Below, piece by piece: positions 2,965-24,171 of a stretch of 64,000 bases of DNA (its first letter is position 1; each line of letters starts with the position of its first letter). This DNA is from an uncultured Methylibium sp. (GTDB lineage Bacteria; Pseudomonadota; Gammaproteobacteria; Burkholderiales; Burkholderiaceae_C): assembly GCF_902826655.1 (NCBI RefSeq), contig NZ_CADEFR010000016.1, positions 1-64,000 of the forward strand, written 5' to 3'. The translations under genes and the position numbers were made by a program. The notes beneath the pieces are model-generated. The model was not told the DNA's origin. It worked only from the letters and a program-made list of their open reading frames with translations, and searched no databases.

Positions 2965-3530
2965 CGCGCGCCCTCCAGGAAGTTCTTCAGCATCGCGTGC
3001 CCATGCTCGGTCAGGATCGATTCGGGGTGGAACTGCACGCCCTCGATGGCCAGCGTCCTGTGGCGCACACCCATGATCTCGCCGTCCGGCGTGGTCGACG
3101 TGATCTCCAGCTCCGCCGGCAGCGTCTCGCGCTGGATCGCCAGCGAGTGGTAGCGGATCACGTCGAAGCTCCTCGGCAGCCCGGCATAGACACCGCGCTG
3201 GTCGGTGCTGATCGTGCTGGCCTTGCCATGCATCTGCACCTGCGCACGCACGATGTCGCCGCCGAGCGCCGCGCCGATGGCCTGGTGGCCCAGGCACACC
3301 CCCAGGATCGGCAAGCGGCCGGCGAAGTGACGGATGGCCTCGACGCAGATGCCGGCCTCCGCCGGCGAGCACGGCCCCGGCGACAGCACGAGGCGGTCGG
3401 GCCGCAGCGCTTCGATCTGCGCCGGCGTGATCTCGTCGTTGCGGAACACCTTCACGTCCTCGCCCAGCTCGCAGAAGTACTGCACCAGGTTGAAGGTGAA
3501 GCTGTCGTAGTTGTCGATCATCAGCAGCAT
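2961..3530 (-). CDS. trpG: Anthranilate synthase, glutamine amidotransferase subunit
   Basis: TrpG supplies ammonia from glutamine to TrpE for anthranilate synthesis. The 189-residue class I amidotransferase has DNYDSFTFN at the N-terminus, the [11 protein letters not shown] nucleophile elbow, and HPESI with the catalytic His and Glu. Its first six codons form one copy of the direct repeat bounding the genomic island, so everything 5' of the ATG is now island DNA. The island places AGGATAG about 7 bp before the ATG, which can serve as ribosome binding site. The natural partner trpE lies 20.6 kb away. Confidence 0.96.
3513..3530 (-). repeat. Left attachment repeat, overlaps trpG codons 1-6
   Basis: This is the 18-bp sequence GTCGATCATCAGCAGCAT, identical to 24154-24171 and in the same orientation. 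On the minus strand it encodes ATG CTG CTG ATG ATC GAC, the start of TrpG. It is the copy that keeps trpG in frame. Confidence 0.88.
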
Positions 3531-3885
3531 TTGCGCTCTATCCTATTGATTTCGTTGGATGTTTTGTTGGACATCCACGTTTGGTACCCGCTTTGATACC
3601 CGCTTTTTCTGTCGCTGGCGAAGCCGGCGCGACGTGCTGGGTGCGGACTTCACGCGCCCGCTGGGGGCGCATAGGAATGGTCAGGCTGATGGCTTGCGCC
3701 AACGCCAACCTGTGCGCGCTGCGGTGATCGGACGGATCGCAGACATGGTCACATTATGGCCGGGCACGCGAGACGCCCTTGAAAAGGAGATCTCCCGTTG
3801 CGGCTTAGGACCCAGGCCCGTTCCCATACAGCCACCTCGCGCCACTGTCGGACGATCGTGGGCAAGTGCGCCGGGCCCGCCGGGC
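3531..3885. other. Island left end: non-coding, repeats and RBS
   Basis: No convincing gene is present. On the minus strand an AGGATAG element ends about 7 bp before the trpG ATG. An inverted repeat GGATGT/ACATCC lies at 3557-3576, and a tandem pair of GRTACCCGCTT elements at 3583-3606. I found no good sigma-70 promoter reading into trpG. The nearest island gene (3886-5202) points toward trpG, so read-through is possible. Confidence 0.6.
3583..3606. repeat. Tandem GRTACCCGCTT elements, left end
   Basis: GGTACCCGCTT and GATACCCGCTT follow each other with a 12-bp period. Almost the same block, with one base changed, occurs at 24024-24047 in the same orientation. Repeats flanking the core on both sides are the layout expected for integrase arm-type sites. 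Binding itself is inference. Confidence 0.6.
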
Positions 3886-5202
3886 TCACGGAGACCTCCC
3901 CAGGACCTCGGCCCCGATTTGGGCATGTGTGCGGTTCCAGGTGAAGAGGCCATTGAAGTCATCGGACCACTTCGGGCTCTCCCGCTTCGGGAAGTAGTAG
4001 GCGGTGCCACCCGATTCAACCAGCCCAGCCTCCAGCGGCTGGAGTCCGCTCTCGCTCAGGAAACCGACGCCCACCACGTGATCCCGGCCCGCACCACTCA
4101 GGAACCGGCTGACCGCAATCCGAAGGGCCGTAGGCGTCTGGCTGGCGTCTTGGTCTTGCTGCGCGACCGACAGGAGTTGATCACCGCCAATGCCATGGAG
4201 ACCAACCAGAAACATCGCACCGCGGGTCCCAGTGAGCTGCCGGCGGGCCGAGTCGCTGAGCGTGTCGAAGACGGCCTTGAGCAGCGCATCGTCTTGCGAG
4301 CTCTGCAGAGTCAGCGCCAACGCACCTCCCGCGTGGGTACCGACAACCATTGTTTGGCGGTTTCGCGTCTCGCTGACCTGGTCGATGGCGGCACGAACCT
4401 CCGAGGGTTGGACACCGTTTGGAATATCGCCCAGGACGGCGGGATCGAACTCGCTGATGCGCACGCCCGAGCCGTCTGGCAGCACCGTCCCTTTGCCGGC
4501 GAAGATCGCCCTCGCGAAGCTTCGTGCGAGATCGACGCGTTGGGCATGCCGCTCGGGCAGTCTGCCGTGCAGCGTCAAGACAGCGGACAGGCCCGTTCGC
4601 AGGCCCTTGATCGTTGGGTGGATGTGGGACCACAGCAGCCCATAGAAGTCCAACGCTTCGCGCTTGTGGACCTTGCGACCCTTGTCTTCTCCGATTGACT
4701 TGCACTCCACTTCCAGGCCATCGGGGCCAACGTCATCGACGAGCAAATCGAACGTACCGCCACCTGTCATCTCCGGCCACGTCAACCTCCGTGCACGACG
4801 TGCGAAGTGCGTCGCGGCACTCAACTCAAGCCGCAGGGCTCGCATGGCCTCAGGCTTGTTGAAGGCGTCGTGAACGCGACGCCGAAGTTGCTCGGCGAGC
4901 GGCCTTGGGGACACCTGCGCCAGCGATAGCACCTGGGCCGCGAAGCTCATCGCCGGATAGATCTCGCGATTGTTGACTTCCCACGCCGGGATGCTGCCGT
5001 AGCGGGCCTGAAGCTCCCGCAGGTGCTCGAGTTGAAAGGACAGGGCGTTCTCGTGCCTCAGAAACTCCCCAAGAAAGCGATTACCTCGGATCTCGTCCTT
5101 GATCTTCCTGACCCTGTTGCGCCAGTGGGCCTCGCCGACAAACTCGGCGAACCGGCGATAGACCTCCGGTATCTCGCCCGTGCCCAGTTCCGTCAACAGC
5201 AT
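3886..5202 (-). CDS. Uncharacterised protein with PD-(D/E)XK-like nuclease core
   Basis: I do not recognise the 438-residue protein as a named family. Its middle has a beta-hairpin pattern typical of PD-(D/E)XK nucleases: D152 in GTFDLLVDD, then E166-C-K168 in GLEVECKSIG, with a helix Glu (E126) upstream. The N-terminal third is helical and Arg-rich; the C-terminal 200 residues are mixed alpha/beta. I chose ATG at 5200-5202 because AGAGGTG precedes it; a TTG five codons upstream is possible. It is the last leftward gene of the island and reads toward trpG. It follows the YgjP gene by about 58 bp. A DNA-targeting role is inference. Confidence 0.7.
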   Translation of the reverse strand: MLLTELGTGEIPEVYRRFAEFVGEAHWRNRVRKIKDEIRGNRFLGEFLRHENALSFQLEHLRELQARYGSIPAWEVNNREIYPAMSFAAQVLSLAQVSPRPLAEQLRRRVHDAFNKPEAMRALRLELSAATHFARRARRLTWPEMTGGGTFDLLVDDVGPDGLEVECKSIGEDKGRKVHKREALDFYGLLWSHIHPTIKGLRTGLSAVLTLHGRLPERHAQRVDLARSFARAIFAGKGTVLPDGSGVRISEFDPAVLGDIPNGVQPSEVRAAIDQVSETRNRQTMVVGTHAGGALALTLQSSQDDALLKAVFDTLSDSARRQLTGTRGAMFLVGLHGIGGDQLLSVAQQDQDASQTPTALRIAVSRFLSGAGRDHVVGVGFLSESGLQPLEAGLVESGGTAYYFPKRESPKWSDDFNGLFTWNRTHAQIGAEVLGRSP

Positions 5203-5260
5203 CGGCACCTCTGGCAACGGTCAGGTGCGGCCAAGGGTGGCTGCCAGCCAACCGGCCGGA

Positions 5261-5986
5261 TCAGAAGTTCCATTCCTCGTGCCCGAGCGGCGCCGCGTTC
5301 AGCCGTTTCTGCGTCGCCGCCCAGCGTGGGAGGCGACGATTCATGAGCGCCACGAAGCGCTCGCCGTGGTTGGGCTCGGCCAGGTGCAGCAGCTCGTGCA
5401 CGACGATGTACTCGATGCACTCGACCGGCTTCTTGGCCAGTTCGGAGTTCAGCCAAACACGGCGGCTGGCCGGAGTGCAACTGCCCCACTTCGTCTTCAT
5501 CCGCTTCACGCCCCAGGCGCTGGCCTGGACGCCAAGCTTGTCCTGCCATGTGGTGAACATCGGCGCCACCAATGCCTTCAGCTGCTCCCGGTACCAGCGG
5601 TCCAGCACGGCTGCCCGCTGTGCTTGGCTCGCTCCCGGGCGCACGAAGAGATCGAGCGAAGCGATACCTCGCACCGCCACTCGCGGCGTGCCCTCGGCCT
5701 CGTGCACCCGCAGCCTGTAGCGGCGGCCGAAGACGTAGTGGCTTTCGCCCACCGCCATCTCGCGTTCAGACTGGCGCGGCTGCTGCTCGAATCTCGAGCG
5801 CTGCAACTTGATCCACGCCAGCTTGTCGATCACCGCGAGGCGCACCGCCTCGTCGCTGATCACCAGCGGCGCTGCCACCCGCACGCGCCCTGCCGGCGGA
5901 TAGACGCCCAGGTGCAGGTTCTTGATGTCCTTGCGCACCACGTTGATCGTGAGGCCGGCCACCTTTAGCACGGTCTCAGTACTCAT
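5261..5986 (-). CDS. YgjP-type (DUF45) zinc metallopeptidase
   Basis: The protein has 241 residues. The C-terminal half has the zinc motif VHELLHL (HExxH) followed by EPNHGERF, which supplies the third ligand region; upstream is MKTKWGSCTPASRRVWLN, typical of the YgjP/WLM-like group. The start MSTETVLK (5984-5986) overlaps the 3' end of hsdR by 11 bp, implying coupled translation. This peptidase family is often found beside type I restriction genes. Its substrate is unknown; control of restriction activity is only a hypothesis. Confidence 0.88.
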   Translation of the reverse strand: MSTETVLKVAGLTINVVRKDIKNLHLGVYPPAGRVRVAAPLVISDEAVRLAVIDKLAWIKLQRSRFEQQPRQSEREMAVGESHYVFGRRYRLRVHEAEGTPRVAVRGIASLDLFVRPGASQAQRAAVLDRWYREQLKALVAPMFTTWQDKLGVQASAWGVKRMKTKWGSCTPASRRVWLNSELAKKPVECIEYIVVHELLHLAEPNHGERFVALMNRRLPRWAATQKRLNAAPLGHEEWNF

Positions 5987-8900
5987 GCTGGTTCTTGGCC
6001 AGTTCGAGCACCTTGTCGGTCGCAGCGTCGATGTCGGCGGGCGACACGCCGAGCGACCCTTGCGGCGTCTCCTGCGCCTGCCCCGGCTCCGGCTCGGCCA
6101 ATCGCGCCGCATGCTTCGTCATCACGGCATGGATCGCTGCGCGCACGCGCTTAAGCTTCATCGCGTTGGACCGCCAACCGTCCTGACGGCTCGTCTGCAA
6201 CGCAGCGTCGACCGCCAGGGCCAACGTGCCGTCCTTGCCCAGGTTGTTGTACAGCGCCCGTTTCGCCGGTGTGTCCAGCGCAGGCGGGTAGGTGACCGGC
6301 GCGCCGCCCGGCGTCGTGGCTGCCTTGGTCAGTGCCGCGATCTCGTCCAGGTACTTCTTGTAGTCGATCACCCCCTGGCGCCGCTGAGCGATCAGCGCGT
6401 CGAGCAGCTTAGACATCTTCTCGTAGTACGCCGGGTCCACCGGCGACTCCTTGACGATCAGGCGCCGAACGTTGTTCTCGATCGTCTCGGCCACGGCCGT
6501 CTCGTTCTTGCGAATCGAGGCAGGCAGCGCGTCGACCGCTGCAGCGCCACGATCGACGATCAGCTGGATCAGCGACAGGTCGTCGAAGGCCGAGATCTTC
6601 TCGCTCTCCTCGGCGCGGATGTAGGTGTCGATCAGGAACCGCATCGCCGGCTCGAAGGCCTTCAGGTCGATGTAGTCCCCGCTGGCCAACCGCACTTCGT
6701 CACGCACCTTGGTGAAGTGGTCCACCTCGGCCTTGATCGTCTGCACGTCGGCAGCCGCGTAGCCTGCAGCTTCAAGTTCACTGGCCAGCGCCGCGTAGGT
6801 GCGCAGGAGCGTCGCGGCGAACTTGTAGAGCTTCAGCCGCTTGGGCTCGTTGGCCTTCAGATGCTCAGCGTTGCCTGACTCCACAGCGCAGAAGAAACGC
6901 ATGTAGGCGGCGGAATCCCTCGGCTGCAGCACGGGCTCACACAACGCCTTGATGGCCTCGCGGGCTTCCTCCAGGTCCTGCCGCGCCTCGGCCAGGCGGT
7001 CCTTGAGCAGGCCCTTCACATCGTCCTCGTCGAAGGCGTCGAACGCACCGCTGGTGTAGTCGCGCACAGCGCCTTCCAGCGGCTTGAACAGATCCTTGTA
7101 GTCGATGATGTAGCCGTAGGGTTTGTCTTCACCGTCGAGCCGGTTCACGCGGCAGATGGCTTGGAACAGGCCGTGGTCCTGTATCCTCTTGTCGATGTAC
7201 AGGTAGGTGGCCGGTGGCGAGTCGAACCCGGTCAGCAGTTTGTCCACCACGATCAGCAGCTTCAGCTGCCCGGGCTGCTCGATGAAGCGCTTCTTGGCCT
7301 GCTTCTCGAACAGTTCGGCTTTCCCGGCCGCCACGTCCTCAGGCTCGTTGAACCAGTCGGCCAGCATCTGCCGGTAGACCTGGTACTTGCGCAGGTTGTC
7401 CGTCTCGCCCTCGCCCGCGGCTTCACCCTTGGCATCGGCCGTCGTGGGCATGTAGCTGGTGACGATGGCGCACTTGCCCTTCAACTCGGTTTTCGCGAAC
7501 AGCTCGTAGAACTTGCACGCCTCATAGATGCTGCCGGCCACCAGCATCGCGTTGCCGTGGCCGTCCATCAGGCGCGGCCGGGTGCTCATGTCCAGCAGGA
7601 TGTCGGCCACGATCTTCTCCAGCCGCGACTGGCTGGAGAGCACGCGTTGCATCGTGCCCCACTTCTGCTTCAGCTGCGCCTTGGCCAGGTCGTTCAGGCC
7701 CTTGGTCTTGGCCTCGAACCACTCGTCGATCTTCTTCTGCGCGGTGATGGACTGCTCGATGTCCCGCGCCTCATAGCGCAGGTCGAGCACCACGCCTTCA
7801 CGCACCGCCTGGTCGAACTTGTAGGTGTGGATGTAGCGCCCGAACACCTCGATGCTGCGCGCCTTGTCTGCCTTCAACAGCGGGGTGCCTGTGAAGCCGA
7901 TGAAGAGTGCGCTGGGCAGCAGCCCCTTCATGGCCTTGTGCAGGTCACCGCTTTGGGTCCGGTGGCACTCGTCGACGAAGACATGCAGGTCGCCCTGCGC
8001 CTTCCACCCTGGGGGCACCCTGCGCAGCGCCTCGACAAAGGCCTTGGTGGCCGCCGCGCCATCCGCCGCGTCGTCATCGTCCTTGCCGCCGAACTTGTGC
8101 ACCAGCGTGCAGATCAGCGACTCTTCGGCCTGGCCGAGCGTCGTGATCAGATCGGCCCCGCTCTTCGTGCGGTAGATGTTCTCGCTGACGCCGAGGAACA
8201 CCTTCTCGATCTGCTCGTCCAGCTCGGTGCGGTCGGTGATGATGAGCACGCGGGCACCCGAACGGTTTTCGCGGATCCACTTGGCCAGCCACACCATCGT
8301 CAGCGATTTGCCGCTGCCTTGGGTGTGCCAGATGATCCCGCCCTCGCGCCTGCGGATGAACTCCTGCGCCGCTACCACGCCGAAGTACTGGTTCTGCCGG
8401 CACACCTTCTTGATGCCGGCATCGAAGACGATGAAGTCGTGGATCAGCTGCAGGAACCGGTGCTTCGCGCACAGCTGCAGCAGGTGCCGGTCCAGCAGGT
8501 TGGGCTCGTCGGCGAACTCGCCGGTCTCTTCAACCCACGAGAGCCAATACTTCTCGGGCGTCTCGATGGCGGCGTAGCGCAGACCTTCGGTGTCGTTGCC
8601 GGCCATCACCCACTGCATCGTCGAGAAGAAGGGTTGGATGAACTCCTTCTTCTGGTTGTCCAGGTTCTGGCGGATGCCTTCGGACACCGACACCGTGGAA
8701 CGCTTCAGCTCCAGCACACCCAGCGCGATGCCGTTGACGTACAGCACCACGTCAGGCCGCTTGGTGCTGGCCTTGGCTCCACTGGTCAGGTCTCCGCCGG
8801 GGACGGTCACTTCCTCGGCCACCCCGAAGTCGTTGGCCAGCGCATCCGCCCAGCTCACCAGCCACACGGTGACGGTGTTCTCGCCCGCCTCGGGCCGCAC

Positions 8901-9179
8901 CTTCACGCCGTAGCGCAGCAGGCGGTAGACGGCATGGTTGCGGTCGTAGAGGCTCTTGCTGGTGTCGTTGGCCGCCTTCTGCAGCTCGAACAAGGCCCGC
9001 GCGGCCAGCGTGTCGCTCACGCCCTGGCTGGCGAGCCAGGCCTTCAGGCGTTCGGGCTCGATGTTCGAATTAGCCGGCCGGTCGATCCAGTCGCCCAGGT
9101 AGGTATAGCCCAGGCGCTGGCTCAGCAGCGCCAGCACCCGCTCTTGCGTCTTCTTCTCGATCTGGCCGACGCTGGGCAT
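5976..9179 (-). CDS. hsdR: Type I restriction enzyme, R subunit
   Basis: HsdR is the translocase and nuclease of a type I RM complex. The 1067-residue protein has an N-terminal PD-(D/E)XK nuclease (PDVVLYVNG...LELKRS, about residues 150-185). Superfamily 2 helicase motifs follow: Walker A HTQGSGKS, DECH box FVDECHRTQSG, motif III FTGTPLL, and LTGFDSP later. The C-terminal part is helical and should contact the methylase. The start MPSVGQIEKK has GAGGT at the right distance; a longer frame upstream overlaps the preceding ATPase gene and is not needed. Length and motifs suggest it is functional. Confidence 0.95.
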   Translation of the reverse strand: MPSVGQIEKKTQERVLALLSQRLGYTYLGDWIDRPANSNIEPERLKAWLASQGVSDTLAARALFELQKAANDTSKSLYDRNHAVYRLLRYGVKVRPEAGENTVTVWLVSWADALANDFGVAEEVTVPGGDLTSGAKASTKRPDVVLYVNGIALGVLELKRSTVSVSEGIRQNLDNQKKEFIQPFFSTMQWVMAGNDTEGLRYAAIETPEKYWLSWVEETGEFADEPNLLDRHLLQLCAKHRFLQLIHDFIVFDAGIKKVCRQNQYFGVVAAQEFIRRREGGIIWHTQGSGKSLTMVWLAKWIRENRSGARVLIITDRTELDEQIEKVFLGVSENIYRTKSGADLITTLGQAEESLICTLVHKFGGKDDDDAADGAAATKAFVEALRRVPPGWKAQGDLHVFVDECHRTQSGDLHKAMKGLLPSALFIGFTGTPLLKADKARSIEVFGRYIHTYKFDQAVREGVVLDLRYEARDIEQSITAQKKIDEWFEAKTKGLNDLAKAQLKQKWGTMQRVLSSQSRLEKIVADILLDMSTRPRLMDGHGNAMLVAGSIYEACKFYELFAKTELKGKCAIVTSYMPTTADAKGEAAGEGETDNLRKYQVYRQMLADWFNEPEDVAAGKAELFEKQAKKRFIEQPGQLKLLIVVDKLLTGFDSPPATYLYIDKRIQDHGLFQAICRVNRLDGEDKPYGYIIDYKDLFKPLEGAVRDYTSGAFDAFDEDDVKGLLKDRLAEARQDLEEAREAIKALCEPVLQPRDSAAYMRFFCAVESGNAEHLKANEPKRLKLYKFAATLLRTYAALASELEAAGYAAADVQTIKAEVDHFTKVRDEVRLASGDYIDLKAFEPAMRFLIDTYIRAEESEKISAFDDLSLIQLIVDRGAAAVDALPASIRKNETAVAETIENNVRRLIVKESPVDPAYYEKMSKLLDALIAQRRQGVIDYKKYLDEIAALTKAATTPGGAPVTYPPALDTPAKRALYNNLGKDGTLALAVDAALQTSRQDGWRSNAMKLKRVRAAIHAVMTKHAARLAEPEPGQAQETPQGSLGVSPADIDAATDKVLELAKNQHEY

Positions 9180-9192
9180 GGTGACCTCGCCG

Positions 9193-10377
9193 TCAGGGCT
9201 CGAAGCGCGGCATCGCGCGCCGCATGAAGGCATCGAATAGCGGTACGGTGAAAGCCATCTCCCCGTGCGACGGGCTATAGACCATGCCCTTCTTGATCAG
9301 GTTGGCGCGCACCGGCGCCAGGCTCGTGGTCTTCACGCCCAGCTTGTCGGCGATGTCGCCGGTGCGGTAGGGGCCTTCGCCCAGTTCAGCCATGGCTCGC
9401 AGGTAGGTCTTCTCGCGCGGCGTCAGCCGATCGAAGCGCACGCGGAAGAAATTTTCGTCGAGGCGCTGCGACACCAGCGCGCTTGTTTCGCGGATCACGT
9501 CTGCGCCAATGGGCGAGGCCGCTGCGTGGTTCCAGGCCTGGTAGCCCCACTCCTGCAGAAAGTACGGGTAGCCCTGCGTCAGCCTGAAGATCTCGTGCAG
9601 CGCATCGAGGTCGAACGCTACGCCCTCCGCCTGCACGGGGTCCTGCAGCGCCCGCGCAGCGTCGGGCTCAGGCAACGGCCCCACGGCGGGGAAGTTGAAC
9701 AGCCGCTCGGCGTACGACTTCGACTCGCCGGCCAGCCCGGGCAGGATCGGCAAGCCCGCGCCCACCAGCACCAGCGGCAGCTGACGCTGCTGCATGCGGT
9801 GCATGGCCATGATCAGTGCACTCAGCTCCTCCGTGCTGAAGTACTGGATCTCGTCGATCAAGATGGCGACGGCCGCGCCTCGCTCCTGCGCCGCCTCGCC
9901 CACGGCCACGAACAGATTGGGCAGATCGACTTCCAGGTCACCGCTGTCGGCGGAACCGGGCTCGGGCTCGATATCCAGCCCGATGTCCAGATCGCCCACC
10001 TTCACTTTGATGGCGCCGATGAAGCTGCGCAGCACGCCCAGGCCGCGGCGCACCTTGTCGCCAGCCGCCTTCACCCGGTCCAGATCGAACAGCAGGCGGC
10101 GCAGGTGGGGCGCCAGCAGCACGGCCAGCGGCTTGCCTTCGTGCGCCTCGACAAGGATGGTGCGGAAGCCCTCGGCCAGGGCAATGCGCTCGATCTGGTT
10201 GAGCAGCACCGTCTTGCCTACGCCCCGCAGGCCGGTCAGCAGCAAGCTCTTCTCGGGCCGCTTGGCCAGCACGCGCCCGAACAACACCTGAGCCTGCTCC
10301 AGAATGCCTTCGCGGCCCGCCAGCTCCGGCGGCGGCGAGCCCGCGCCCGGCGAGAAAGGGTTGCGGATCTTGTCCAT
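9193..10377 (-). CDS. AAA/STAND-like ATPase with C-terminal winged helix
   Basis: The protein has 394 residues. Walker A GLRGVGKT is near residues 49-56 and Walker B AILIDEIQ near 165, followed by sensor-like LVGAGLP. The C-terminal 90 residues, including GDIADKLGVKTTSLAPVR, look like a winged helix. The layout resembles Orc/Cdc6-like and archaeal-type ATPases. It ends 14 bp before the hsdR start codon, so it is probably cotranscribed with hsdR. I start at ATG (MDKIRNPF); a GTG four codons upstream is also possible. It may regulate restriction, load DNA, or be an independent defence gene; the sequence cannot decide. Confidence 0.8.
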   Translation of the reverse strand: MDKIRNPFSPGAGSPPPELAGREGILEQAQVLFGRVLAKRPEKSLLLTGLRGVGKTVLLNQIERIALAEGFRTILVEAHEGKPLAVLLAPHLRRLLFDLDRVKAAGDKVRRGLGVLRSFIGAIKVKVGDLDIGLDIEPEPGSADSGDLEVDLPNLFVAVGEAAQERGAAVAILIDEIQYFSTEELSALIMAMHRMQQRQLPLVLVGAGLPILPGLAGESKSYAERLFNFPAVGPLPEPDAARALQDPVQAEGVAFDLDALHEIFRLTQGYPYFLQEWGYQAWNHAAASPIGADVIRETSALVSQRLDENFFRVRFDRLTPREKTYLRAMAELGEGPYRTGDIADKLGVKTTSLAPVRANLIKKGMVYSPSHGEMAFTVPLFDAFMRRAMPRFEP

Positions 10378-10397
10378 GGTCGGCGCCACTATAGCGA

Positions 10398-10431
10398 CTT
10401 ATGCGACCTTATGCGACTCCTGTCGCATAAG
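10398..10431. promoter_or_regulatory. Operator-like triple CTTATGCGAC repeat
   Basis: Three perfect copies of the 10-mer CTTATGCGAC occur: two abutting direct copies (10398-10407, 10408-10417) and one inverted copy (10422-10431) after a 4-bp gap. They lie 20 bp upstream of the ATPase start and in the divergent region facing the TIGR04255 cassette. No T tract follows, so this looks like a protein-binding operator rather than a terminator. Confidence 0.75.
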
Positions 10432-10641
10432 TGCGAATAGACGGCTATCAGTCGCGGCGAGGTGCCCACCGCAAATTATCGGAATCCAGATAAAACAAGA
10501 TAAAGCTCAGCCGCTGCGCTGCCGCTCTCGGCACTCAATCACGGGAGGCGGAACAAACCCGGCGCCCTCAGTGTCAACTTATCTGTAAACTACTTCCAGC
10601 CTTTCCGGAGAGAAAGGTTGCCACCCGCCCCAGGAGCCACC

Positions 10642-12248: not shown

Positions 12249-12260
12249 AGGGCACAGACC

Positions 12261-13088: not shown

Positions 13089-13109
13089 CGCTCCCGAAGC
13101 TCGGTGTGG

Positions 13110-16079
13110 TCACACCAGCTGGCTCCGGCCTGTCAGCAAGGCCTGCATCATGCCCTGCTTGAGCAGGCGAGCTTTCTCGCGGCGGGCTTCCAGGGCGGCA
13201 ACCTCGTTCTCGATGTCGGACAGCACTTCGGCAATCGCCTCCTGCTCTTGTCGGGTCGGCGGGAGGTACACCTCGAAGGCCTTGAATGTCGGAAGCCTCA
13301 GTGAGTCGACCGTCGCCTTCACCGAGTTGCGCAGCGCGTGCGCTCCAAAGTGGAGTGTCATGTAGAGGTGCACGTAACGGCCGCTCACATCATCAGCGAA
13401 CCGAGTAATCGCGTAGACCCGCTGGTGCACATCAAAGCGACCGTTGATGTAATGGAAGATGCTGCCGATCCCGCCCTCTCCGGGGACCAGAATTGCCTCG
13501 CAGTCGTGCGAATAGCTGTTGATACGCTCGACTTGCGCTGAACGGACGAAGAACGGGTACTGGCCACCTTCGACCTTGTCTTGGTTGTTCCTCGAGCCAG
13601 TCTTGATATGGGCGATGTCCCCGAGCTTTCGCCAGACCCAGGAGCCGCTGAATCCTGGAAGTCGCAACCGACCCGACAGCAAGTGCTGAACATGTGCCAG
13701 GTGAGTCTCCACTCGTGCAGTACTTGCCTCGACCTCAACGGTCAACCCCGAGAGCGGTGACGAGTACCGTTCGACCAGCTGCGAGAGTCGCCCTGTCAGC
13801 GCGCGGCTAACCGAATCCTGCTCTTCTCGAACGTTCGCTTGAAGAGCCGCGAGCCACTTGTCTTCGACGACGAGTACCTTGACCTCGTCGGCGGTGAGTT
13901 CCCCAAACTTCAACAGCACCTTCGCCGACAGCGCCTTCTGCGCATCCTTGAGCTTCTTGCCCGCCGCCGCCTCTTTGTCAAACAGCGCCTGCAACTTCTC
14001 CAGCACGGTACGCTCCTCGTCGGCGTCCTTGTCGCCACGAATCTCGCGCAACCGGTCCTTCACGCCCTTGGCGGTGACCTTTCCCTTGTCGTTCTTGGCC
14101 TCGTCCAGCGGCCCATCGTCAGCGCCGTGCTCCTCGATCAGCTCTTCCAGCTCCAGCGTCACCGCATCGCGCTCGGCTTCCAGCGCATCCACCTGCGCCT
14201 GCTCCTTGGCGAAGTAGCGCGCGATCACAAGGTGCTCGGGGATCAAGTCGAAGTTCGGCTTGCCATCGGTCAGCGCCTGCCAGCCATCCAGCGTGATGGC
14301 CCAGGCGTCGTCGTTCATCGTCTCTTCCCAGTAGTCCATCAGCCGCTGGTAGACGTCGTAGGCGTCGAGCAGCGGTGCGCCCTGGAAGGCAGCGAGCAAG
14401 GCCTCGGACAGCGTCTCGACCAGGTGCTTGGGTGAGTCACCAGGCTTGAGGGCGACGAGGCCGGGCCGCTGCGCCGTGCGCCAGGCCTCGAAGCGCGCCT
14501 GCACCTGCTGCCGGAAGGCCGTGAATTCCGGGTGCCCGAAGATCGTGGCCTTCACCTGCGCCGGCTCCACCAACAGCCGGCTGTAGCCTGGGCGGCCGGC
14601 CGACTTGAACAACTGCGCGCGCACACCGGGCAGCACTTGCCAGTAGCCGGCCAGCGCGTCCAGGTCACGGTCGGGGATGCCGCCCAACAGGTGCGCCTCG
14701 ATGTCCTGCAGGTCTTCGGGCTCGCTCGTGTCGATGTAGCGCGGCAGGTTCAGGTTGAAGTCGTTGGCTTCGATCTCCGCCACTGGCACCATGCGCGAGT
14801 AGCGCGGCTGCTCCATCTGGCGGTGGAAGGTGTCGACGATGCGGTGCATGTCCTGCGCGCGCAGCCGGTTCTTGTTGCCGTCCTTGATGTAGCCCTTGCT
14901 GGCGTCGATCATGAAGATGCCGCGGCGGCCCGCGCTGCCGGCCTTGTCCAGCACCACGATGCAGGCCGGGATGCCGGTGCCGTAGAACAGGTTGGCAGGC
15001 AGGCCCACCAGCGCCAGGATCACGCCCTGCCGCACCAGCTTCTTGCGGATGGCCCCTTCGGCACCGCCGCGGAACAGCACGCCATGCGGCAGGATCACTG
15101 CGCCGCGGCCGGTGCTCTTCAAGCTCGTCAGGATGTGCAGCAGGAAGGCGTAGTCGCCGTTCTTCGGCGGCGGCACTCCCCAGTCGTGCTCCTTGAAGCC
15201 AAAGCGGCCGTACAGGTCGTTCGCCGGGTCCAGCCCACTGGTCCAGTTCTTCTGCGAGAAGGGCGGGTTGGCCACCACGTAGTCGAAGGCCTTCAGCCGC
15301 AGCGCGTTGCGCTCGTCCTTGAAATGCGGGCTGCTCAGCGAGTTGGCGGGCCAGATCTCGGCCGTGGGGCAGTCGTGCAGCACCATGTTCATGCGCGCCA
15401 GCGCCGACGTGGCGTTGTCCATCTCCTGCCCGTAGATGGTCAGGTCGTGGCCGGTGCGGCTCTTGGCCAGATCGTGCGCCTTCAGCAGCAGCGAGCCTGA
15501 TCCGCAGGTAGGGTCGTAGATGCTCTGCGTGGCCGACGTGGCCTTGTCCAGCCCGATCACCTGCGCCATCACGCGCGAGACTTCGGCCGGCGTATAGAAC
15601 TGGCCCTTGCTCTTGCCCGACTCGGTGGCGAAGTGCCGCATCAAGTATTCGTAGGCGTCGCCCAGTAGGTCGTCCCCTTCGGCGCGGTTGCGGCCGAAGT
15701 CCAGGCCTTCGAAGATGGCCACCAGCTTGGAGAGGCGGTCCACCATCTCCTTGCCCTTGCCAAGCTTCTCTTCGTCATTGAAGTCGGCGACGTTGATGGC
15801 GCCGCTCAGGCTGTCGTTGGCCTTCGCGAGCTTGCCGATGATGATGTTGATGCGGTCGCCGATCTCCTTGTCGCCTTTGGCGGCCACCATGTCGGCGAAG
15901 CGTGCACCGGGCGGCACGTCGATCAGCGCATTCGGTGCGGCGGCGTACTTGTCGGACACGTACTTGACGAACAGCAGCGTCAGCACATAGTCCTTGTACT
16001 GGCTGGCATCCATGCCGCCGCGCAGTTCGTCGCACGACTGCCAGAGCTTGCTGTAGAGCTGGGATTTTTTGAGGGCCAT
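13110..16079 (-). CDS. Fused type I RM methylase-specificity protein (HsdM-HsdS)
   Basis: The 989-residue protein joins two usual subunits. Residues 1-480 are HsdM: helical N-terminal domain, SAM motif I DPTCGSGSLLLK and catalytic motif IV NPPF. A long helical linker (about 480-800) is rich in Lys and Glu. The last 190 residues form one target recognition domain, beginning WVWRKLGDIAHIKTGSRN and ending with the helical spacer EVLSDIENEVAALEARREKA and the HsdS-type end LLKQGMMQALLTGR. A normal HsdS has two recognition domains; here there is one. It modifies adenine at sites also cut with HsdR (5976-9179). No separate hsdS exists in the window. Confidence 0.93.
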   Translation of the reverse strand: MALKKSQLYSKLWQSCDELRGGMDASQYKDYVLTLLFVKYVSDKYAAAPNALIDVPPGARFADMVAAKGDKEIGDRINIIIGKLAKANDSLSGAINVADFNDEEKLGKGKEMVDRLSKLVAIFEGLDFGRNRAEGDDLLGDAYEYLMRHFATESGKSKGQFYTPAEVSRVMAQVIGLDKATSATQSIYDPTCGSGSLLLKAHDLAKSRTGHDLTIYGQEMDNATSALARMNMVLHDCPTAEIWPANSLSSPHFKDERNALRLKAFDYVVANPPFSQKNWTSGLDPANDLYGRFGFKEHDWGVPPPKNGDYAFLLHILTSLKSTGRGAVILPHGVLFRGGAEGAIRKKLVRQGVILALVGLPANLFYGTGIPACIVVLDKAGSAGRRGIFMIDASKGYIKDGNKNRLRAQDMHRIVDTFHRQMEQPRYSRMVPVAEIEANDFNLNLPRYIDTSEPEDLQDIEAHLLGGIPDRDLDALAGYWQVLPGVRAQLFKSAGRPGYSRLLVEPAQVKATIFGHPEFTAFRQQVQARFEAWRTAQRPGLVALKPGDSPKHLVETLSEALLAAFQGAPLLDAYDVYQRLMDYWEETMNDDAWAITLDGWQALTDGKPNFDLIPEHLVIARYFAKEQAQVDALEAERDAVTLELEELIEEHGADDGPLDEAKNDKGKVTAKGVKDRLREIRGDKDADEERTVLEKLQALFDKEAAAGKKLKDAQKALSAKVLLKFGELTADEVKVLVVEDKWLAALQANVREEQDSVSRALTGRLSQLVERYSSPLSGLTVEVEASTARVETHLAHVQHLLSGRLRLPGFSGSWVWRKLGDIAHIKTGSRNNQDKVEGGQYPFFVRSAQVERINSYSHDCEAILVPGEGGIGSIFHYINGRFDVHQRVYAITRFADDVSGRYVHLYMTLHFGAHALRNSVKATVDSLRLPTFKAFEVYLPPTRQEQEAIAEVLSDIENEVAALEARREKARLLKQGMMQALLTGRSQLV

Positions 16080-16091
16080 GGAATCTTGTTG

Positions 16092-16199
16092 TCAGTGTCG
16101 AAGCCGCTGCGAGCAGGTGTTGGGGAAGGACTCGATGCGTGCCAGGGTGATGCTCCACTTGCGCTGGATCTTCGATGGCGTTCCAGCCTTTTCAGGCAT
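16092..16199 (-). CDS. Small ORF between AbiEi and HsdMS
   Basis: A 35-residue frame (MPEKAGTPSKIQRKW...) begins on an ATG overlapping the AbiEi stop and ends 12 bp before the hsdMS start. AbiE toxins normally start at this kind of overlap but are about 300 residues long, and this peptide does not look like one. It may be a coupling ORF, a remnant or chance. Confidence 0.3.
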   Translation of the reverse strand: MPEKAGTPSKIQRKWSITLARIESFPNTCSQRLRH

Positions 16200-16815
16200 C
16201 GTTGGTCAGCGCCATCAGGTAGGGCTGCATCGTGCGCCACACGCCGGCGGCCTGAGCCTCGCGCGCAATCTGCGCCGGCGTGGCCCTGCGTTGCCGCAGC
16301 GCCTGGCGCAGGCCCTCGACGGCGATCAGTTCGCCGACAGTACGGCGGTAGCGGAACAGGTCCGCCACCGTCTTGGCAATGCCGAACACCGGCACGCTCG
16401 CGCCCGCGATCTTCTTGTGCTCGACGCCGCGGCGCAGTTGGTCGTCGGGGAACCGGGCGACACGCAGCGGTGGATAGCTGACGCGGGGTCGCCAGTCCTT
16501 GCGGCCAATGGCGATCCAGACCTTGGGCGGGATCTGGTCGGTCAGCCCGTGGAACGCGAGCGCCGAGACGAGGCAGATCACGCCCTTGGGTACGAGGCGT
16601 GATGCTTCGGCCAGTGACTGTTGCGGGTCGAGCGCGGCGTCGGGCAGTTGGTACAGCCCGCGGGCCAGGCGAACGACCTCTCCGGCGCGCTCCATGCGGC
16701 TCACCGTGGTACCCGTGACCCCTGCGCTGCGCAGCTCTGCGAGCCGCGTCAGCCCGCGCCGCCGAAGCAGCGCCAGCGCTTGGTCGCGCTGAGTCGAGGG
16801 GACGGCAAGGGGCAT
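16192..16815 (-). CDS. AbiEi-family antitoxin (type IV TA), no toxin gene beside it
   Basis: The 207-residue protein has an N-terminal winged helix (ALALLRRRGLTRLAELRSAGV...ERAGEVVRLARGLYQLP) and the typical middle VCLVSALAFHGLTDQIPP followed by KTVADLFRYR. This is the AbiEi layout: DNA-binding antitoxin and autorepressor of the AbiE abortive infection system. The partner AbiEii nucleotidyltransferase should follow immediately but hsdMS does. It may have been recruited as a regulator of the RM operon. I start at MPLAVPS; the frame extends upstream without a better site. Confidence 0.85.
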   Translation of the reverse strand: MPLAVPSTQRDQALALLRRRGLTRLAELRSAGVTGTTVSRMERAGEVVRLARGLYQLPDAALDPQQSLAEASRLVPKGVICLVSALAFHGLTDQIPPKVWIAIGRKDWRPRVSYPPLRVARFPDDQLRRGVEHKKIAGASVPVFGIAKTVADLFRYRRTVGELIAVEGLRQALRQRRATPAQIAREAQAAGVWRTMQPYLMALTNDA

Positions 16816-16849
16816 GTTCTGAAGGCTCGGATGATCTACGAAATCGTCC

Positions 16850-16865
16850 GATGGTTTATACCATC
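16850..16865. promoter_or_regulatory. Palindrome upstream of AbiEi gene
   Basis: GATGGT-TTAT-ACCATC is a perfect 6-bp inverted repeat with a 4-bp centre, 35 bp upstream of the AbiEi ATG. On the minus strand it contains TATAAA. AbiEi proteins are known to repress their own promoters at inverted repeats, so an operator is plausible. Confidence 0.5.
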
Positions 16866-16940
16866 TCTGTGCCCTCGCTGACCAGTTCCGGAGAGGCCCA
16901 GCCAATGACCTCCGACCCGCCCTCACTGCCGCGCTGGGCC

Positions 16941-18180: not shown

Positions 18181-18202
18181 TGCCGGTCACCCGTGACCGG
18201 CA
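18181..18202. repeat. 22-bp perfect palindrome
   Basis: The left arm TGCCGGTCAC (18181-18190) and right arm GTGACCGGCA (18193-18202) are separated by CC. The loop is too short for an RNA terminator, so a protein-binding or recombination site is more likely. Confidence 0.6.
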
Positions 18203-18332
18203 AGGCATGTGGTCGTGCTTGCCCTGTTGGGCTCCGCCGCATGTCACCCGCTCGTGCACCTGACACCACCCCGGACTCTCGGTGAGGGGTGGACCCATGC
18301 AGGTGGATGGCGCTGCGAAAGCTGAGAACTGA

Positions 18333-18458
18333 TCCATCGAAGGCAGCAGGCTCGACCTGGCTGCCGATGTCGCCACCGCCCTCGAGGCCGGCGACATCAC
18401 CCACCCCGTGCTGCGCGGAAACCCGCGCACGGGCCGGATCAACCCGTTTCATTTTTAA
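18333..18458 (+). pseudogene. Possible 3' remnant of a mobile-element gene
   Basis: A 41-codon open stretch after an in-frame TGA reads like a natural C-terminus (LAADVATALEAGDITHPVL...RTGRINPFHF, then TAA). There is no start codon and no upstream extension. I treat it as a fragment of a lost gene; the family is unknown. Confidence 0.3.
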
Positions 18459-18624
18459 GGACGACCGAGCCAGCCGGCAGCGCTGAGGTGCTGCTCACGC
18501 TGGCGAACCCCTGGGTCGGTGCAGCGCTGCCGTGGTCGCAGGCTGCACTGGAACGAACTGACCACGGCCCGGCCGGGCGATGGAATCCACCTGGCCGGGT
18601 CCCGCCGCCGATTCCTTGCCATGC

Positions 18625-18652
18625 GGTGCGCGCCGTTCGGGCGGCGCGCACC
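18625..18652 (+). promoter_or_regulatory. Hairpin 16 bp before the integrase start
   Basis: GGTGCGCGCC pairs perfectly with GGCGCGCACC across an 8-base loop. CCGGAGAA follows as ribosome site. The stem could limit read-through into, or translation of, the recombinase gene. Confidence 0.45.
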
Positions 18653-18668
18653 CTCACCGGAGAACCTC

Positions 18669-19835
18669 ATGCCTCATGCTGCTGTCGATCCTTCCGCCGC
18701 TCGCCGCCCACCACCTGTGGGGCGAGCTTCCCATCAACCACTGCGGCCACGCGAATGGTCGGGCCTGACCGACCGCGACACGCTGGCGCGCTACCGGCCG
18801 GGCCAGGCCGACCCGCTGCAGGTGCTGGAAGTGCTGCTGAGGCTGCACAACCAGCAGCACACGGCGCGCCAGAAGACCGTGTCGCACAAGACCCGCCAGG
18901 CGCGCGCTCAGTTTCTGCGCCGCTTCTTCGCCTGCCTGCAATCGCGCGCCGGCTTCAAGACCTTGCCCGACCCGCGGAACCTCGCGCAGAAGCACATCCA
19001 CGCCATCGTGCGGGTGTGGCGCGAAGACAAGCTCAAGCCGCCGACGATCCAGACCTACCTGAGCTTTCTGCGCGGCCTGGCCAAGTGGACGGGCAAGCCC
19101 GGCTTCGTGCTCAGACCCGCGCACTACGGGCTGGAGCTGGCGGAGTACCAGCGCCACGAGGCGACCGAGCGCGACAAGAGTTGGTCGGCCCAAGGCGTCG
19201 ACATCGACGCGCTGATCGAGCGGGTGTGCGCCTGCGACCCGTACGTGGGTGCGTCGCTGCGTTTGATCCGGGCGTTCGGCCTGCGCAAGAAGGAGTCGGT
19301 GATGCTGCGGCCACACGCCTGCGTCGTGCCTTTCGAGTCCACCGGACTGCCGGAAGAACAGCGGCAGGGCGATCTCTACGTGTGGATCCGGCAGGGCGCG
19401 AAGAATGGGCGCCAGCGCTTTGTGCCGCTGAACACGCCTGAGCGCATGACTGCGCTTGCCCAGGCGCAGCGGGTCGTGTCAGGGTACGACGCCCACCTGG
19501 GTAACCCCAACCGGGATCTGAAGCGTAACCTGCGGCACTTCGGCTATGTGCTGGAGAAGTTCGGCGTCACGGGCAGCAAGCTGGGGATCACAGCGCACGG
19601 CTTGCGTCATGAGGCGCTGATCGACGAGTTCGTCTCGCTGAGTGGGCATCAGCCGCCGGTGCGAGGCGGTGGCCCCATGCCGGCCTATGACGAGAAGGCT
19701 GCAAGGCTCGCCGTCTCGCGCCTTGCGGGTCACTCCAGGCCAAGAGCCTCGCGGGCGTACCTGGGTGCGGTGATGAACGGCCGTCCGTCGTCGCGGCAAA
19801 CCCGCGACGATGCAGCCCTCGGGCAGGGCGACTGA
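18669..19835 (+). CDS. Tyrosine recombinase, Integrase_1-like family
   Basis: The protein has 388 residues. The N-terminal SAM-like domain covers about 30-170; the catalytic domain carries the first Arg in RAFGLRKKESVML, HGLRHE (HxxR), AGHSR and the terminal AYLG tyrosine, so the active site looks complete. This type is common in integrative and conjugative elements of proteobacteria. The start MPHAAVDPS follows CCGGAGAA. It is oriented opposite to the next integrase, with stops 25 bp apart. Whether it moves this island is not shown. Confidence 0.85.
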   Translation: MPHAAVDPSAARRPPPVGRASHQPLRPREWSGLTDRDTLARYRPGQADPLQVLEVLLRLHNQQHTARQKTVSHKTRQARAQFLRRFFACLQSRAGFKTLPDPRNLAQKHIHAIVRVWREDKLKPPTIQTYLSFLRGLAKWTGKPGFVLRPAHYGLELAEYQRHEATERDKSWSAQGVDIDALIERVCACDPYVGASLRLIRAFGLRKKESVMLRPHACVVPFESTGLPEEQRQGDLYVWIRQGAKNGRQRFVPLNTPERMTALAQAQRVVSGYDAHLGNPNRDLKRNLRHFGYVLEKFGVTGSKLGITAHGLRHEALIDEFVSLSGHQPPVRGGGPMPAYDEKAARLAVSRLAGHSRPRASRAYLGAVMNGRPSSRQTRDDAALGQGD

Positions 19836-19859
19836 CTGCGCGCTCGGGACTCAGCTCTC

Positions 19860-21050
19860 TCAGGCTGGGTGCGCCGCCGCGATGCTGTCGAGCCAGTCCG
19901 CCCAAGACTGCATCATCGCGGCGCGCTCGGCCAGATGGTCGGCATGGTTGTAGGCCGCGCGCACGCGGTTGCGCTCTACGTGCGCGAGCTGCAACTCGAT
20001 GAAGTCGGAGCGCAGGCCCATCTCGTGCAGCCGCGTCGACGCGGTCGCGCGGAAGTCGTGCGCGGTGACGGTGGCCGACGCGAAGCCCAGGCTCATCAGC
20101 GCGTGGTTGATGGTGGTGGCCGACATCACGTCGTGCGGCCGGCGGTGGTTGGGGAACAGCCAACGGCCGGCGCCGGTGATGCCCTTCAGCTCGGTGAGCT
20201 GCGCCACCGCCTGCGTGGACAGCGGCACGATGTGCAGCCGGCGCATCTTCATCTTCTCGGCCGGGATGCGCCACTCGGCGGCGGCCAGGTCCACCTCGAT
20301 CCACTCGGCCTTGCGCATCTCGATCGTGCGCACGAAGGTGAGCAGCAGCAGGCGCAGCGCGATCACCGTGGTGCGGTGGCCGCCGAAGCCCTGCAGCTTG
20401 CGCAGGAAGGCGGCGATCTCGTCGCGGTCCATCGGCCGGCTGTGGTTGACTGGCGGGCGGATGACAGCACCGCGCAGCGCCGAGGCCGGGTCGTGGTCGG
20501 CGCGCAGCGTGGCCACGGCGTAGCGGAACACCTGCGAACACCACTGCCGCAGGTTCAGCGCCACCACCTCGGCGCCGCGCTTGGTGGCGCGGTCCAGGAT
20601 GGCCAGCACGTCGGCCGCGGTCACCGAGCGGATCGGCAGCCGGCCGATGCGCGGGTAGATGTCCTTCTTCATGCCGCGCTCCACCTGCATCAGGTAGTAC
20701 GGCGCCCAGCGGCTGCGCTTCTTCTCGATCCACTCCTCGGCGACGGCCTTGAAGGTCAGCGCGTTGGCGTTGATCTGTCGCGTGCGTTCGGTCTGCCGAG
20801 CATGGGCCGGGTGCCGGCCCTGGCGGATCAGTTCGCGTGCGTCGTCACGCGCCTTGCGCGCATCGGCCAGCGAGACCTGCGGGTACTCGCCGATGGCGAA
20901 CAGGTTCTCTCGTCCGTCGATGCGGTAGCGATAGCGCCAAAGCTTGGAGCCGGTGGGCCTGATCTCGAGGTACAGGCCTGCGGTGTCGGCGAGCTTGAGG
21001 GGCTTGCCGGCGGGCTTGGCCTGGCGGATCTTGATGTCGGTGAGGGGCAT
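19860..21050 (-). CDS. P4-family tyrosine integrase (DUF4102-type)
   Basis: The 396-residue protein starts MPLTDIKIRQAKPAGKPLKLAD, the hallmark N-terminal arm-binding domain of P4-like integrases. A core-binding domain covers about 100-200. The catalytic part has TFVRTIEMRKAEW with the first Arg, AHDFRATASTRL (HxxR), LAHVERN and the nucleophile in AAYNHADH. All key residues are present. Such integrases usually sit beside an attachment site; here the gene is 3.1 kb from the right end. The doubled GRTACCCGCTT elements at both ends suit this family, so it is my preferred candidate for the trpG integration. Confidence 0.9.
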   Translation of the reverse strand: MPLTDIKIRQAKPAGKPLKLADTAGLYLEIRPTGSKLWRYRYRIDGRENLFAIGEYPQVSLADARKARDDARELIRQGRHPAHARQTERTRQINANALTFKAVAEEWIEKKRSRWAPYYLMQVERGMKKDIYPRIGRLPIRSVTAADVLAILDRATKRGAEVVALNLRQWCSQVFRYAVATLRADHDPASALRGAVIRPPVNHSRPMDRDEIAAFLRKLQGFGGHRTTVIALRLLLLTFVRTIEMRKAEWIEVDLAAAEWRIPAEKMKMRRLHIVPLSTQAVAQLTELKGITGAGRWLFPNHRRPHDVMSATTINHALMSLGFASATVTAHDFRATASTRLHEMGLRSDFIELQLAHVERNRVRAAYNHADHLAERAAMMQSWADWLDSIAAAHPA

Positions 21051-21267
21051 GGCAATCGGATCTCTGCGTCGCCCGACGCTCCGGTTCAGTCGACGCACAA
21101 ATTTCGCATCGATGGTTCGCCCGTCAAGGTTGTCTGCCGAATTGCCACGACCAAAGGCCCGGAACTTCAGGCGTTTGGCGAATCAGCCAAACACCGTTGA
21201 CGGAGAGAGCTCGAATCGGGCGGCGCTCAACGACATCAGTAGACTGCCGACCAGGGAGGCGAAAGCA

Positions 21268-22862: not shown

Positions 22863-22896
22863 CTGAGTGGAGGATCGCTGCTGGTCAACGGCGTGC

Positions 22897-24015
22897 CTAC
22901 GAGCCGATTGCCTTTCCAAATGGCAGGTCGTAGTCGTAGCCCGAGATGCCGGCCTGCAGCGATTCCAGCCTCGCCTTCGTCGGATCGGTCAGCCTTGCCA
23001 GGTGCGTCGCAAGTCTGAGCCACTCCCGGCTCTGCTCGGGTAGCGCCTCGCCGTTGTTGATCTGGCTCTGCAGGTGCTCGACGTAGGCTTTGACCTCGCA
23101 GTACCGATGCCAGGCTTCCGTCTCCTTGTGAAGCTGATCCGAGAAGTTGCGAAGCCGCCGCTGCCGCTCTCGAGCAATCTCCGCTTCGCGAGCCTCTTCC
23201 GCCCAGCGCCGACGCTGCTCCTCCCGCTCGGCGCGCAGCGCCGCAATCGCCTGGGCGCCGCCGGCCAGGCCGGCGACGATGCTTTCGATCTTCTCTTCTA
23301 GGCGCGAGCGCTTGCCGTCCGCCCAGGACTTCCGCCCAGCGAAGTCACCCGCGATCGTCAGCCGCAGCTCACCGGTGAAGTGATACGTGAACGTGCGCGT
23401 CTTCATCCACGAGTACTTCGGGTCGACCTCGACGGTCTCGGTGCGCGTGTAGTTCTCGGCGATGCCGATGCCCAGGCGCTCGCCGCTGACATCGACCTCG
23501 ACTCGCTTCGCTTCCTGGTTGTGGGCGAAGCGCGCGCCCGCCGCGGGCATGGCCCTTTCGATCGTGTCCAAGAGGCGGCACGCTCGCTCAACGGTCGCAG
23601 GGCTGAGCGAACAAGCAATCACGCGGGATGAGCCGCAAGTGACGAAGCCATCCGCCGAAGGCTTTGCGTTGGACAGTCGCTGGAACGTTGCGGCAGCCAC
23701 GCCTGCCAGGGCTTCGCCCAGAGCCGCCTGCGAGGCCTTGATGCTGGCCCTGTCGATCGTCACCTTCGGTGTCTCCGCGATGCGATGGCGCGCTGCGTCC
23801 AGTTCCACCGTGTCGATCTTGGCCGATGGAAGGCTCGGCTTGGGCGGGGCCTTCCCGGCCGCCAGCTTGGCCCAGTAGCCTCGCGGCGGCCGAGGAATGT
23901 TGTGTCGTCGGCAGGCCTTGGCCAAGCCGACATCCGAGATGTCCAGCTCGCGGGCCAGCTTGCTCATAGGCTTGGACCACACTTGGTTGTAGAGATCGCG
24001 GCGGGAGATCTGCAT
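22897..24015 (-). CDS. Uncharacterised protein with N-terminal HTH-like and coiled-coil regions
   Basis: The 372-residue protein begins MQISRRDLYNQVWSKPMSKL with an HTH-like stretch (LARELDISDVGLAKACRRH, about 20-38) and a basic patch NIPRPPRGYW. A central alpha/beta domain follows, then a long coiled coil (about 260-320, ALRAEREEQRRRWAEEAREA style). I know the pattern from accessory regions but no function. It is the rightmost island gene, with the ATG 8 bp from the right-end tandem repeats, where an integrase would usually lie. Leftward transcription from trpE would reach it. Confidence 0.6.
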   Translation of the reverse strand: MQISRRDLYNQVWSKPMSKLARELDISDVGLAKACRRHNIPRPPRGYWAKLAAGKAPPKPSLPSAKIDTVELDAARHRIAETPKVTIDRASIKASQAALGEALAGVAAATFQRLSNAKPSADGFVTCGSSRVIACSLSPATVERACRLLDTIERAMPAAGARFAHNQEAKRVEVDVSGERLGIGIAENYTRTETVEVDPKYSWMKTRTFTYHFTGELRLTIAGDFAGRKSWADGKRSRLEEKIESIVAGLAGGAQAIAALRAEREEQRRRWAEEAREAEIARERQRRLRNFSDQLHKETEAWHRYCEVKAYVEHLQSQINNGEALPEQSREWLRLATHLARLTDPTKARLESLQAGISGYDYDLPFGKAIGS

Positions 24016-24023
24016 ACGTTTTC

Positions 24024-24048
24024 GGTACCCGCTTCGATACCCGCTTTT
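24024..24048. repeat. Tandem GRTACCCGCTT elements, right end
   Basis: GGTACCCGCTT and GATACCCGCTT again, same orientation and 12-bp period as at 3583-3606, with one base changed between the two units. They lie 105 bp inside the right repeat. In a circular form these two blocks would flank the core on both sides. Confidence 0.6.
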
Positions 24049-24153
24049 TGCCGGGCTGGGGCGGTCCTGCGTGGGACGTCAAGAGCCCGAATCTCCAGCA
24101 CTGGCGCGGGTTTGCGGGCCGTCGTGGGATGCCGTGAGACCCACCTGAAGTTG

Positions 24154-24171
24154 GTCGATCATCAGCAGCAT
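24154..24171 (-). repeat. Right attachment repeat with decoy trpG start
   Basis: An exact copy of GTCGATCATCAGCAGCAT. Two bases separate it from the trpE stop, as in an uninterrupted operon. Its ATG opens a 30-codon frame (24079-24171) that begins MLLMID like TrpG and then runs into island sequence. Similarity to real trpG continues weakly a few bases past the 18 bp. Confidence 0.88.

Follow-up and report, generated by a model that had tools for sequence, protein, structure and literature searches.

The 64,000-nucleotide stretch analysed here (the window), positions 1 to 64,000 of contig NZ_CADEFR010000016.1 from an uncultured Methylibium sp. (assembly GCF_902826655.1), contains a trp operon in which an island separates trpE from trpG. 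The identities of trpE, trpG, trpD and trpC are backed by Pfam, and the features of the locus that concern the island and its ends are as follows.

2961..3530, minus strand: trpG, 189 amino acids, severed from trpE (PF00117 and relatives)
3513..3530, minus strand: trpG-side 18-bp core repeat, equal to trpG codons 1-6 (exact repeat, two copies in the assembly)
3531..3578, minus strand: hairpin and Shine-Dalgarno region ahead of trpG, supplied by the island (alignments)
3583..3607, minus strand: integrase arm-like repeat, -77 from the core (same place in other complete element ends)
3681..3746, minus strand: island-borne leader open reading frame (ORF) MSAIRPITAARTGWRWRKPSA with two Trp codons (22-codon frame, as in all boxed leaders)
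3753..3758, minus strand: -10-like box CATAAT, inner limit of the conserved island end (alignment and spacing)
19860..21098, minus strand: P4-type tyrosine integrase, 412 amino acids (PF13356, PF22022, PF00589; clade at trpG)
24024..24048, minus strand: integrase arm-like repeat, +124 from the core (same place in eight of nine aligned element starts)
24154..24171, minus strand: trpE-side 18-bp core repeat (exact repeat)
24174..25649, minus strand: trpE, GTG start set by comparison with relatives (PF00425, PF04715)
25758..25832, minus strand: host leader ORF ahead of trpE, MFMSRKQTKGSHDRGAWPWRRQTS (ORF; similar pre-trpE leaders elsewhere)

The sequence GTCGATCATCAGCAGCAT is present at 3513-3530 and again at 24154-24171 as an exact 18-bp repeat that cannot be extended on either side, and its minus-strand reading, ATGCTGCTGATGATCGAC, corresponds to the first six codons of trpG. 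The repeats enclose an insert of 20,641 bp, and joining the flanks yields trpE-TGA-TC-ATG-trpG. The crossover thus falls within the 5′ part of trpG and, because it sits at the start codon itself, preserves the reading frame. These are the only two exact copies in the 4.22-Mb assembly, about 0.0001 chance exact matches being expected for a given 18-mer at equal base frequencies. As trpE retains the leader ORF MFMSRKQTKGSHDRGAWPWRRQTS, both halves of the split operon start with Trp codons; the pre-trpE leaders in other genomes that we read are similar and end around GAWPWR.

Comparison with relatives reveals the uninterrupted site. We located trpG in 99 of 100 relatives and read 30 loci, one of them the window's own. 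In four of the five congeners 1 bp separates the trpE stop from the trpG ATG, and in the fifth about 70 bp; all five are uninterrupted, so that relatives are not uniformly separated without the repeats, and the direct repeats of the window match this empty site. Related islands in other genera occupy the same position at trpG. A sequence-only reading had proposed a 20.6-kb island that interrupts the trp operon at the trpG start codon, is bounded by exact 18-bp repeats equal to trpG codons 1-6 and restores trpE-TGA-2 bp-ATG-trpG when its flanks are joined; repeats, joined flanks and empty sites agree with each of these points, the spacer being TC. Its assignment to the tyrosine-recombinase islands is likewise supported, but it overlooked the Trp-codon leader at the island end.

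The island encodes its own integrase, which has the arm-binding, core-binding and catalytic domains of the P4 type (PF13356, PF22022 and PF00589). Some match to this protein is present in 323 of the 399 family genomes, and among the matches listed only those of two genomes (G058 and G602; genomes are cited by G and loci by L numbers) exceed 50% identity besides the window; a further search added four integrases at 72% identity. All seven full-length integrases with an identity of roughly 72% or higher, the window's included, are located 0.3-3.4 kb from a trpG core that has at most one mismatch. In a midpoint-rooted FastTree phylogeny, whose support values were not examined, the integrase belongs to a clade of 13 tips (window, L047-L050, L053, L057, L065 and L148-L152), every one of which is placed at the trpG start, either by the core or, for L049 and L050, by the first codons of trpG; for L053 (G741) no trpG is seen in the assembly. 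The core is absent upstream of all 42 other distinct integrase loci, within the 1.5 kb or less examined (shorter for five), a range that misses more distant att sites. Matches among plasmids (999 records) and phages (449 records) are all below 60% identity. At L049 (G625) and L050 (G689) the first trpG codons give way to a stop and other sequence, and a full trpG lies on the same contig about 85 kb away in G625 and 150 kb away in G689 (loci L247 in G689 and L248 in G625; trpG loci L239 and L238); these two are perhaps very large elements at trpG.

A pattern for the trpG-side end of the island found 22 stretches in genome contigs, 20 of which lead into trpG and two (L138, L143) into an element start. 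Carriers include Aquabacterium parvum, A. commune, A. soli and Piscinibacter sakaiensis 201-F6 (G058), the bacterium that degrades poly(ethylene terephthalate) and was first named Ideonella. Both ends and the integrase are on a single contig in the window (20.6 kb), G058 (18.9 kb), G790 (21.6 kb) and G805, the A. soli genome (21.0 kb); the element ends fall on separate contigs in G602, A. parvum and A. commune. The trpE gene precedes the element by 1.4-13.6 kb, with the host trpG leader in between, in G058, G790, G805, A. parvum and A. commune; in G602 trpE is on another contig. The layout of the window, in which the trpE stop is followed by 1 bp, the trpG start and the element, is repeated in G695 (27.7 kb) and G507 (24.9 kb). 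Searched order-wide, a narrow end pattern of 35 nt retrieved the window alone (1 of 399 genomes; 12 listed, the window included, being of the window's family). We also considered tandem islands or an excised circle for the end-start junctions of G058 and G602, and rejected both: the junctions are better read as a host trpG leader followed by one element because the junction leader and the leader at trpG differ within each genome (identity 84% for G058 and 68% for G602). Three further loci are recorded here. At L189 (G568:C1:79500-90800) HsdM-like and c13-cluster genes lie reversed between trpE and a trpG whose arm repeat is degenerate, and may represent a decayed island of the trpG-element family; at L180-L182 (G802:C4) a gap of 42.6 kb separates trpE from trpG, with an Aquabacterium-type leader and no close integrase; and at L190 (G593:C2:44500-50500) the full trpE is followed, after about 2.6 kb, by a short duplicate of its own 3′ end.

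The element ends share repeats at fixed distances from the core, the layout that would be expected of integrase arms. On the trpG side the arm-like repeat AAAAGCGGGTATCRAAGCGGGTAYC, differing by 0-1 mismatches from the window's copy, lies at -77 in the window, G058, G602, G790, G805, A. commune and A. parvum; at +123/124 it recurs, with 1-3 mismatches, in eight of nine aligned element starts; the ninth, from G499, has a different repeat in that place. Allowing up to six mismatches, no match was found at -77 in the host leaders that adjoin elements (G058, G602, A. parvum) or in those of G490 and G593.

The trpG-side end of the island is itself organised as a leader. Reading towards trpG it presents a -10-like box, the 21-residue peptide MSAIRPITAARTGWRWRKPSA, hairpins, the arm repeat, a Shine-Dalgarno sequence and the ATG, so that an ORF with Trp codons lies upstream of a trp gene. 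The conserved block extends from the -10-like box to the trpG ATG, about 220 nt, and past the box the elements are mostly unrelated. We gathered 29 leaders by likeness to the island end, element and host leaders mixed, and counted codons in the 27 with a recognised box, leaving out those of G496 (box GATAAT, leader present) and G573 (no leader found). A 22-codon frame runs to TGA in all 27, with Trp at codon 16 in 26, at codon 14 in 16 and at least once in each. Sequestration of the Shine-Dalgarno sequence by a CATCC arm was dropped as a candidate mechanism, the pairing failing in some leaders; Rho-dependent or translational control of trpG is possible. Rfam returned three chance-level matches only for the trpE leader.

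A search with a covariance model (R1, E 0.01, run with filters that lose weak matches) found this leader in 32 of 399 family genomes (window included) and 21 of 141 genera, and in none of the five congeners. Of the 35 matches listed, 30 loci were taken: trpG is present at 26 of them, 25 having a leader peptide that fits our pattern; G499 and G664 are element junctions, and the remaining two are weak matches that lack trpG. The leader is therefore native to trpG in several genera and foreign to the genus of the window. The element leaders of G790, G805, A. commune and A. parvum are 93-98% identical to one another, whereas the native leaders displaced in these genomes are 30-62% identical mutually and 28-72% identical to the element leaders; between G058 and G602 the element leaders are 95% identical and the native ones 60%. 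The C-terminal residues are WWR in the native peptides of A. commune, A. soli and G790, and RQRWRKPAT in those of the element. In these comparisons the leaders group by element and not by host, and the trpG-side end travels with the element. A second lineage is represented by G499, whose 26.5-kb island has an integrase 41-43% identical; its host leader, MFATRSISAACPGWHWRRPSA, remains on the integrase side, and its trpG-side end carries VKHLSTRFWGFRRWRSRQTQTRTH, with a GTG start 6 nt past TAAAAT. G507 and G695 contain a segment WRWRKPSTR-stop, in a frame open for 40 codons upstream. The leader end may have been captured from a host that kept trpGDC away from trpE and preceded by a leader of this kind, or else hosts may have domesticated the ends of elements; the wide distribution of diverged native leaders favours capture.

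We consider it likely that this is an integrative island at trpG whose end gives trpGDC a new 5′ region with a Trp leader that tunes expression. In this mechanism the P4-type integrase would recombine attP with the first six codons of trpG acting as attB; excision and transfer of the island are predicted from the same features. Comparison between genomes establishes the use of the site and the carriage of the leader by the element. The trpG-side end brings the -10-like box, as a putative promoter, together with the 21-residue Trp leader peptide, hairpins and Shine-Dalgarno sequence, from which trpG-trpD-trpC, severed from trpE, would be transcribed and translated, with putative attenuation at the leader adjusting them to tryptophan supply. 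The leader would thus probably keep the severed trpGDC genes both expressed and tryptophan-responsive. The trp operon would be divided in two, with a Trp-codon leader at the head of each unit, and the island would gain a conserved target without killing trpG. Opinion is evenly balanced on a broader proposal, that the integrase clade carries a portable Trp-sensing leader and moves a working attenuator and a split-operon architecture between species, in at least two lineages (integrases about 41-43% identical) with different peptides. If the leader is functional, the attachment region would experience two selections together, since an integrase arm repeat and the trpG leader share about 220 nt.

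Several observations weigh against regulation by the island end. The three codon positions vary equally among the leaders (6.0, 5.3 and 5.9 differences per 20 codons), and selection on the peptide as such is therefore not shown. The Aquabacterium-group element leaders have one Trp codon only, the Trp segment of G507 and G695 has no assigned start codon, and the large clade members G625 and G689 show no credible Trp leader. Neither a -35 consensus nor a full sigma-70 consensus was found at the island end, the terminator of a trp attenuator was not recognised (no intrinsic-terminator-like site in 3400-4000), and the island leader matches no described Rfam family at E up to 5. Good arm repeats also occur in G051 (one mismatch) and G595 (two), neither of which has an integrase above 50% identity; since the G051 repeats are nearly perfect with no close integrase, arms are not a certain sign of an element. 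In G051 (L078, G051:C68:28000-37500) the only genes between trpE and trpG, which has an element-like leader with the arm repeat, are one for a SNF2-type helicase and one unknown; the leader may be a relic or native.

Part of this evidence would suit a passive end, the leader being host DNA trapped when attP arose, with no regulatory role, and trpG being expressed by read-through from the island genes at 3886-9182, which are oriented toward it. The missing terminator and -35, the even variation of codon positions and the state of G625 and G689 all fit that explanation. We nevertheless judge it unlikely, given that every boxed leader, elements included, preserves the frame and one or more Trp codons, that the much diverged integrase of G499 is accompanied by another Trp leader, and that conservation starts at the -10-like box with unrelated sequence beyond. 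It is a good deal less probable again that the 220-nt block is kept for recombination only, as arm and accessory-protein sites, its likeness to a trp leader being inherited and unused: the arm-like repeat does lie within the block at a fixed distance, but the leader ORF is not within the arm-core interval, and the same ORF persists in native leaders whose arms are degenerate. That an assembly join or a chance repeat explains the insert is scarcely credible. The genome is a 142-contig draft; even so, a join at the repeats is very unlikely because other genomes show these island ends at this very position in trpG, together with the repeats, arms and integrase, and congeners show the empty site.

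An integrative island that supplies a leader to trpG thus remains our preferred explanation, and its other genes are listed below.

3886..5217, minus strand: protein of unknown function adjoining the leader, oriented as trpG (no family match; cluster c18)
5261..5968, minus strand: YgjP-like metallopeptidase (PF01863)
5976..9182, minus strand: HsdR, type I restriction (Pfam; PADLOC)
9193..10377, minus strand: AAA ATPase (PF13191)
13110..16079, minus strand: HsdM-HsdS fusion, type I restriction (PF02384, PF01420; PADLOC)
16192..16926, minus strand: AbiEi antitoxin-like protein (Pfam; PADLOC)
18519..19835, plus strand: second recombinase-like protein, convergent with the integrase (PF12834, PF12835, weak but above cutoff)
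22897..24015, minus strand: first island gene at the trpE-side end, unknown function (relative in G602)

Relatives of the 3886..5217 protein in L127 and L131 adjoin the same element end, and the second recombinase-like gene is kept beside the integrase in related elements. By comparison of clusters c7/c8, HsdM-like proteins occur in the elements of G058, G602, G790, G805 and A. commune and HsdR-like proteins in those of G058, G790, G805, L134 and L135; neither was found in the part of the A. parvum element examined. In G790 (L174) actin-like, RelA/SpoT-domain and Schlafen AlbA_2 proteins lie near the integrase and restriction genes. The region 10390-13100 of the window, between the AAA ATPase and the HsdM-HsdS fusion, has no clear genes; a plus-strand ORF at 10839-12248 matches HTH_23. 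A Pfam scan of 20 island ORFs recognised no conjugation genes, the large clade members not being annotated, so that the island does not qualify as an integrative conjugative element (ICE).

Islands commonly spare their target gene by restoring the end into which they insert, and trp attenuators combine a short Trp-codon ORF with hairpins before trp genes. In the present case the restored part would be a regulatory leader belonging to that pathway, placed inside one of the most thoroughly studied operons; should the leader function, a mobile element can split and rewire the trp operon in one step. With P. sakaiensis 201-F6 among the carriers, the idea is testable in cultured strains. Our literature search, in which most papers were judged from search listings, found no description of an island at trpG. 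An excerpt on a Xanthomonas strain places restriction genes between trpG and ltaE, as synteny only (PMC4686621), and the trpG passages seen in PMC2864759 proved irrelevant. The sequence-only reading had called an in-frame 5′-end target unusual; the 5′ trpG site and intact frame stand, but the excerpts available of PMC8409611 provide precedents at dusA and prfC. The dusA-specific elements (IMEVchUSA3) are tyrosine-integrase islands in a 5′ gene end that supply a new promoter (PMC8409611, in part). Like them, the trpG island targets the 5′ end of a conserved gene and supplies its start region, with a promoter that is here predicted; unlike them, since they change the protein N terminus, it leaves the TrpG protein unchanged, splits an operon and supplies a Trp-codon leader. 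SXT/R391 ICEs target the 5′ end of prfC (PMC4344509, in part), where SXT provides a new promoter and N terminus (PMC8409611, in part). The trpG island resembles them in its 5′-end target and predicted replacement promoter, but SXT is conjugative and no conjugation gene was recognised here; the excerpts of PMC4344509 and PMC8409611 mention no leader peptide, whereas the trpG island has one. The general mechanism of ribosome-mediated trp attenuation is described in PMC1183508 (seen in part). As in trp attenuators, a short Trp-codon ORF and hairpins precede a trp gene; unlike them, the leader is at the end of a mobile element, stands before trpG and has neither a U-run terminator nor an Rfam match. 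What is new with respect to the dusA and prfC precedents is a leader matched to the target's own pathway.

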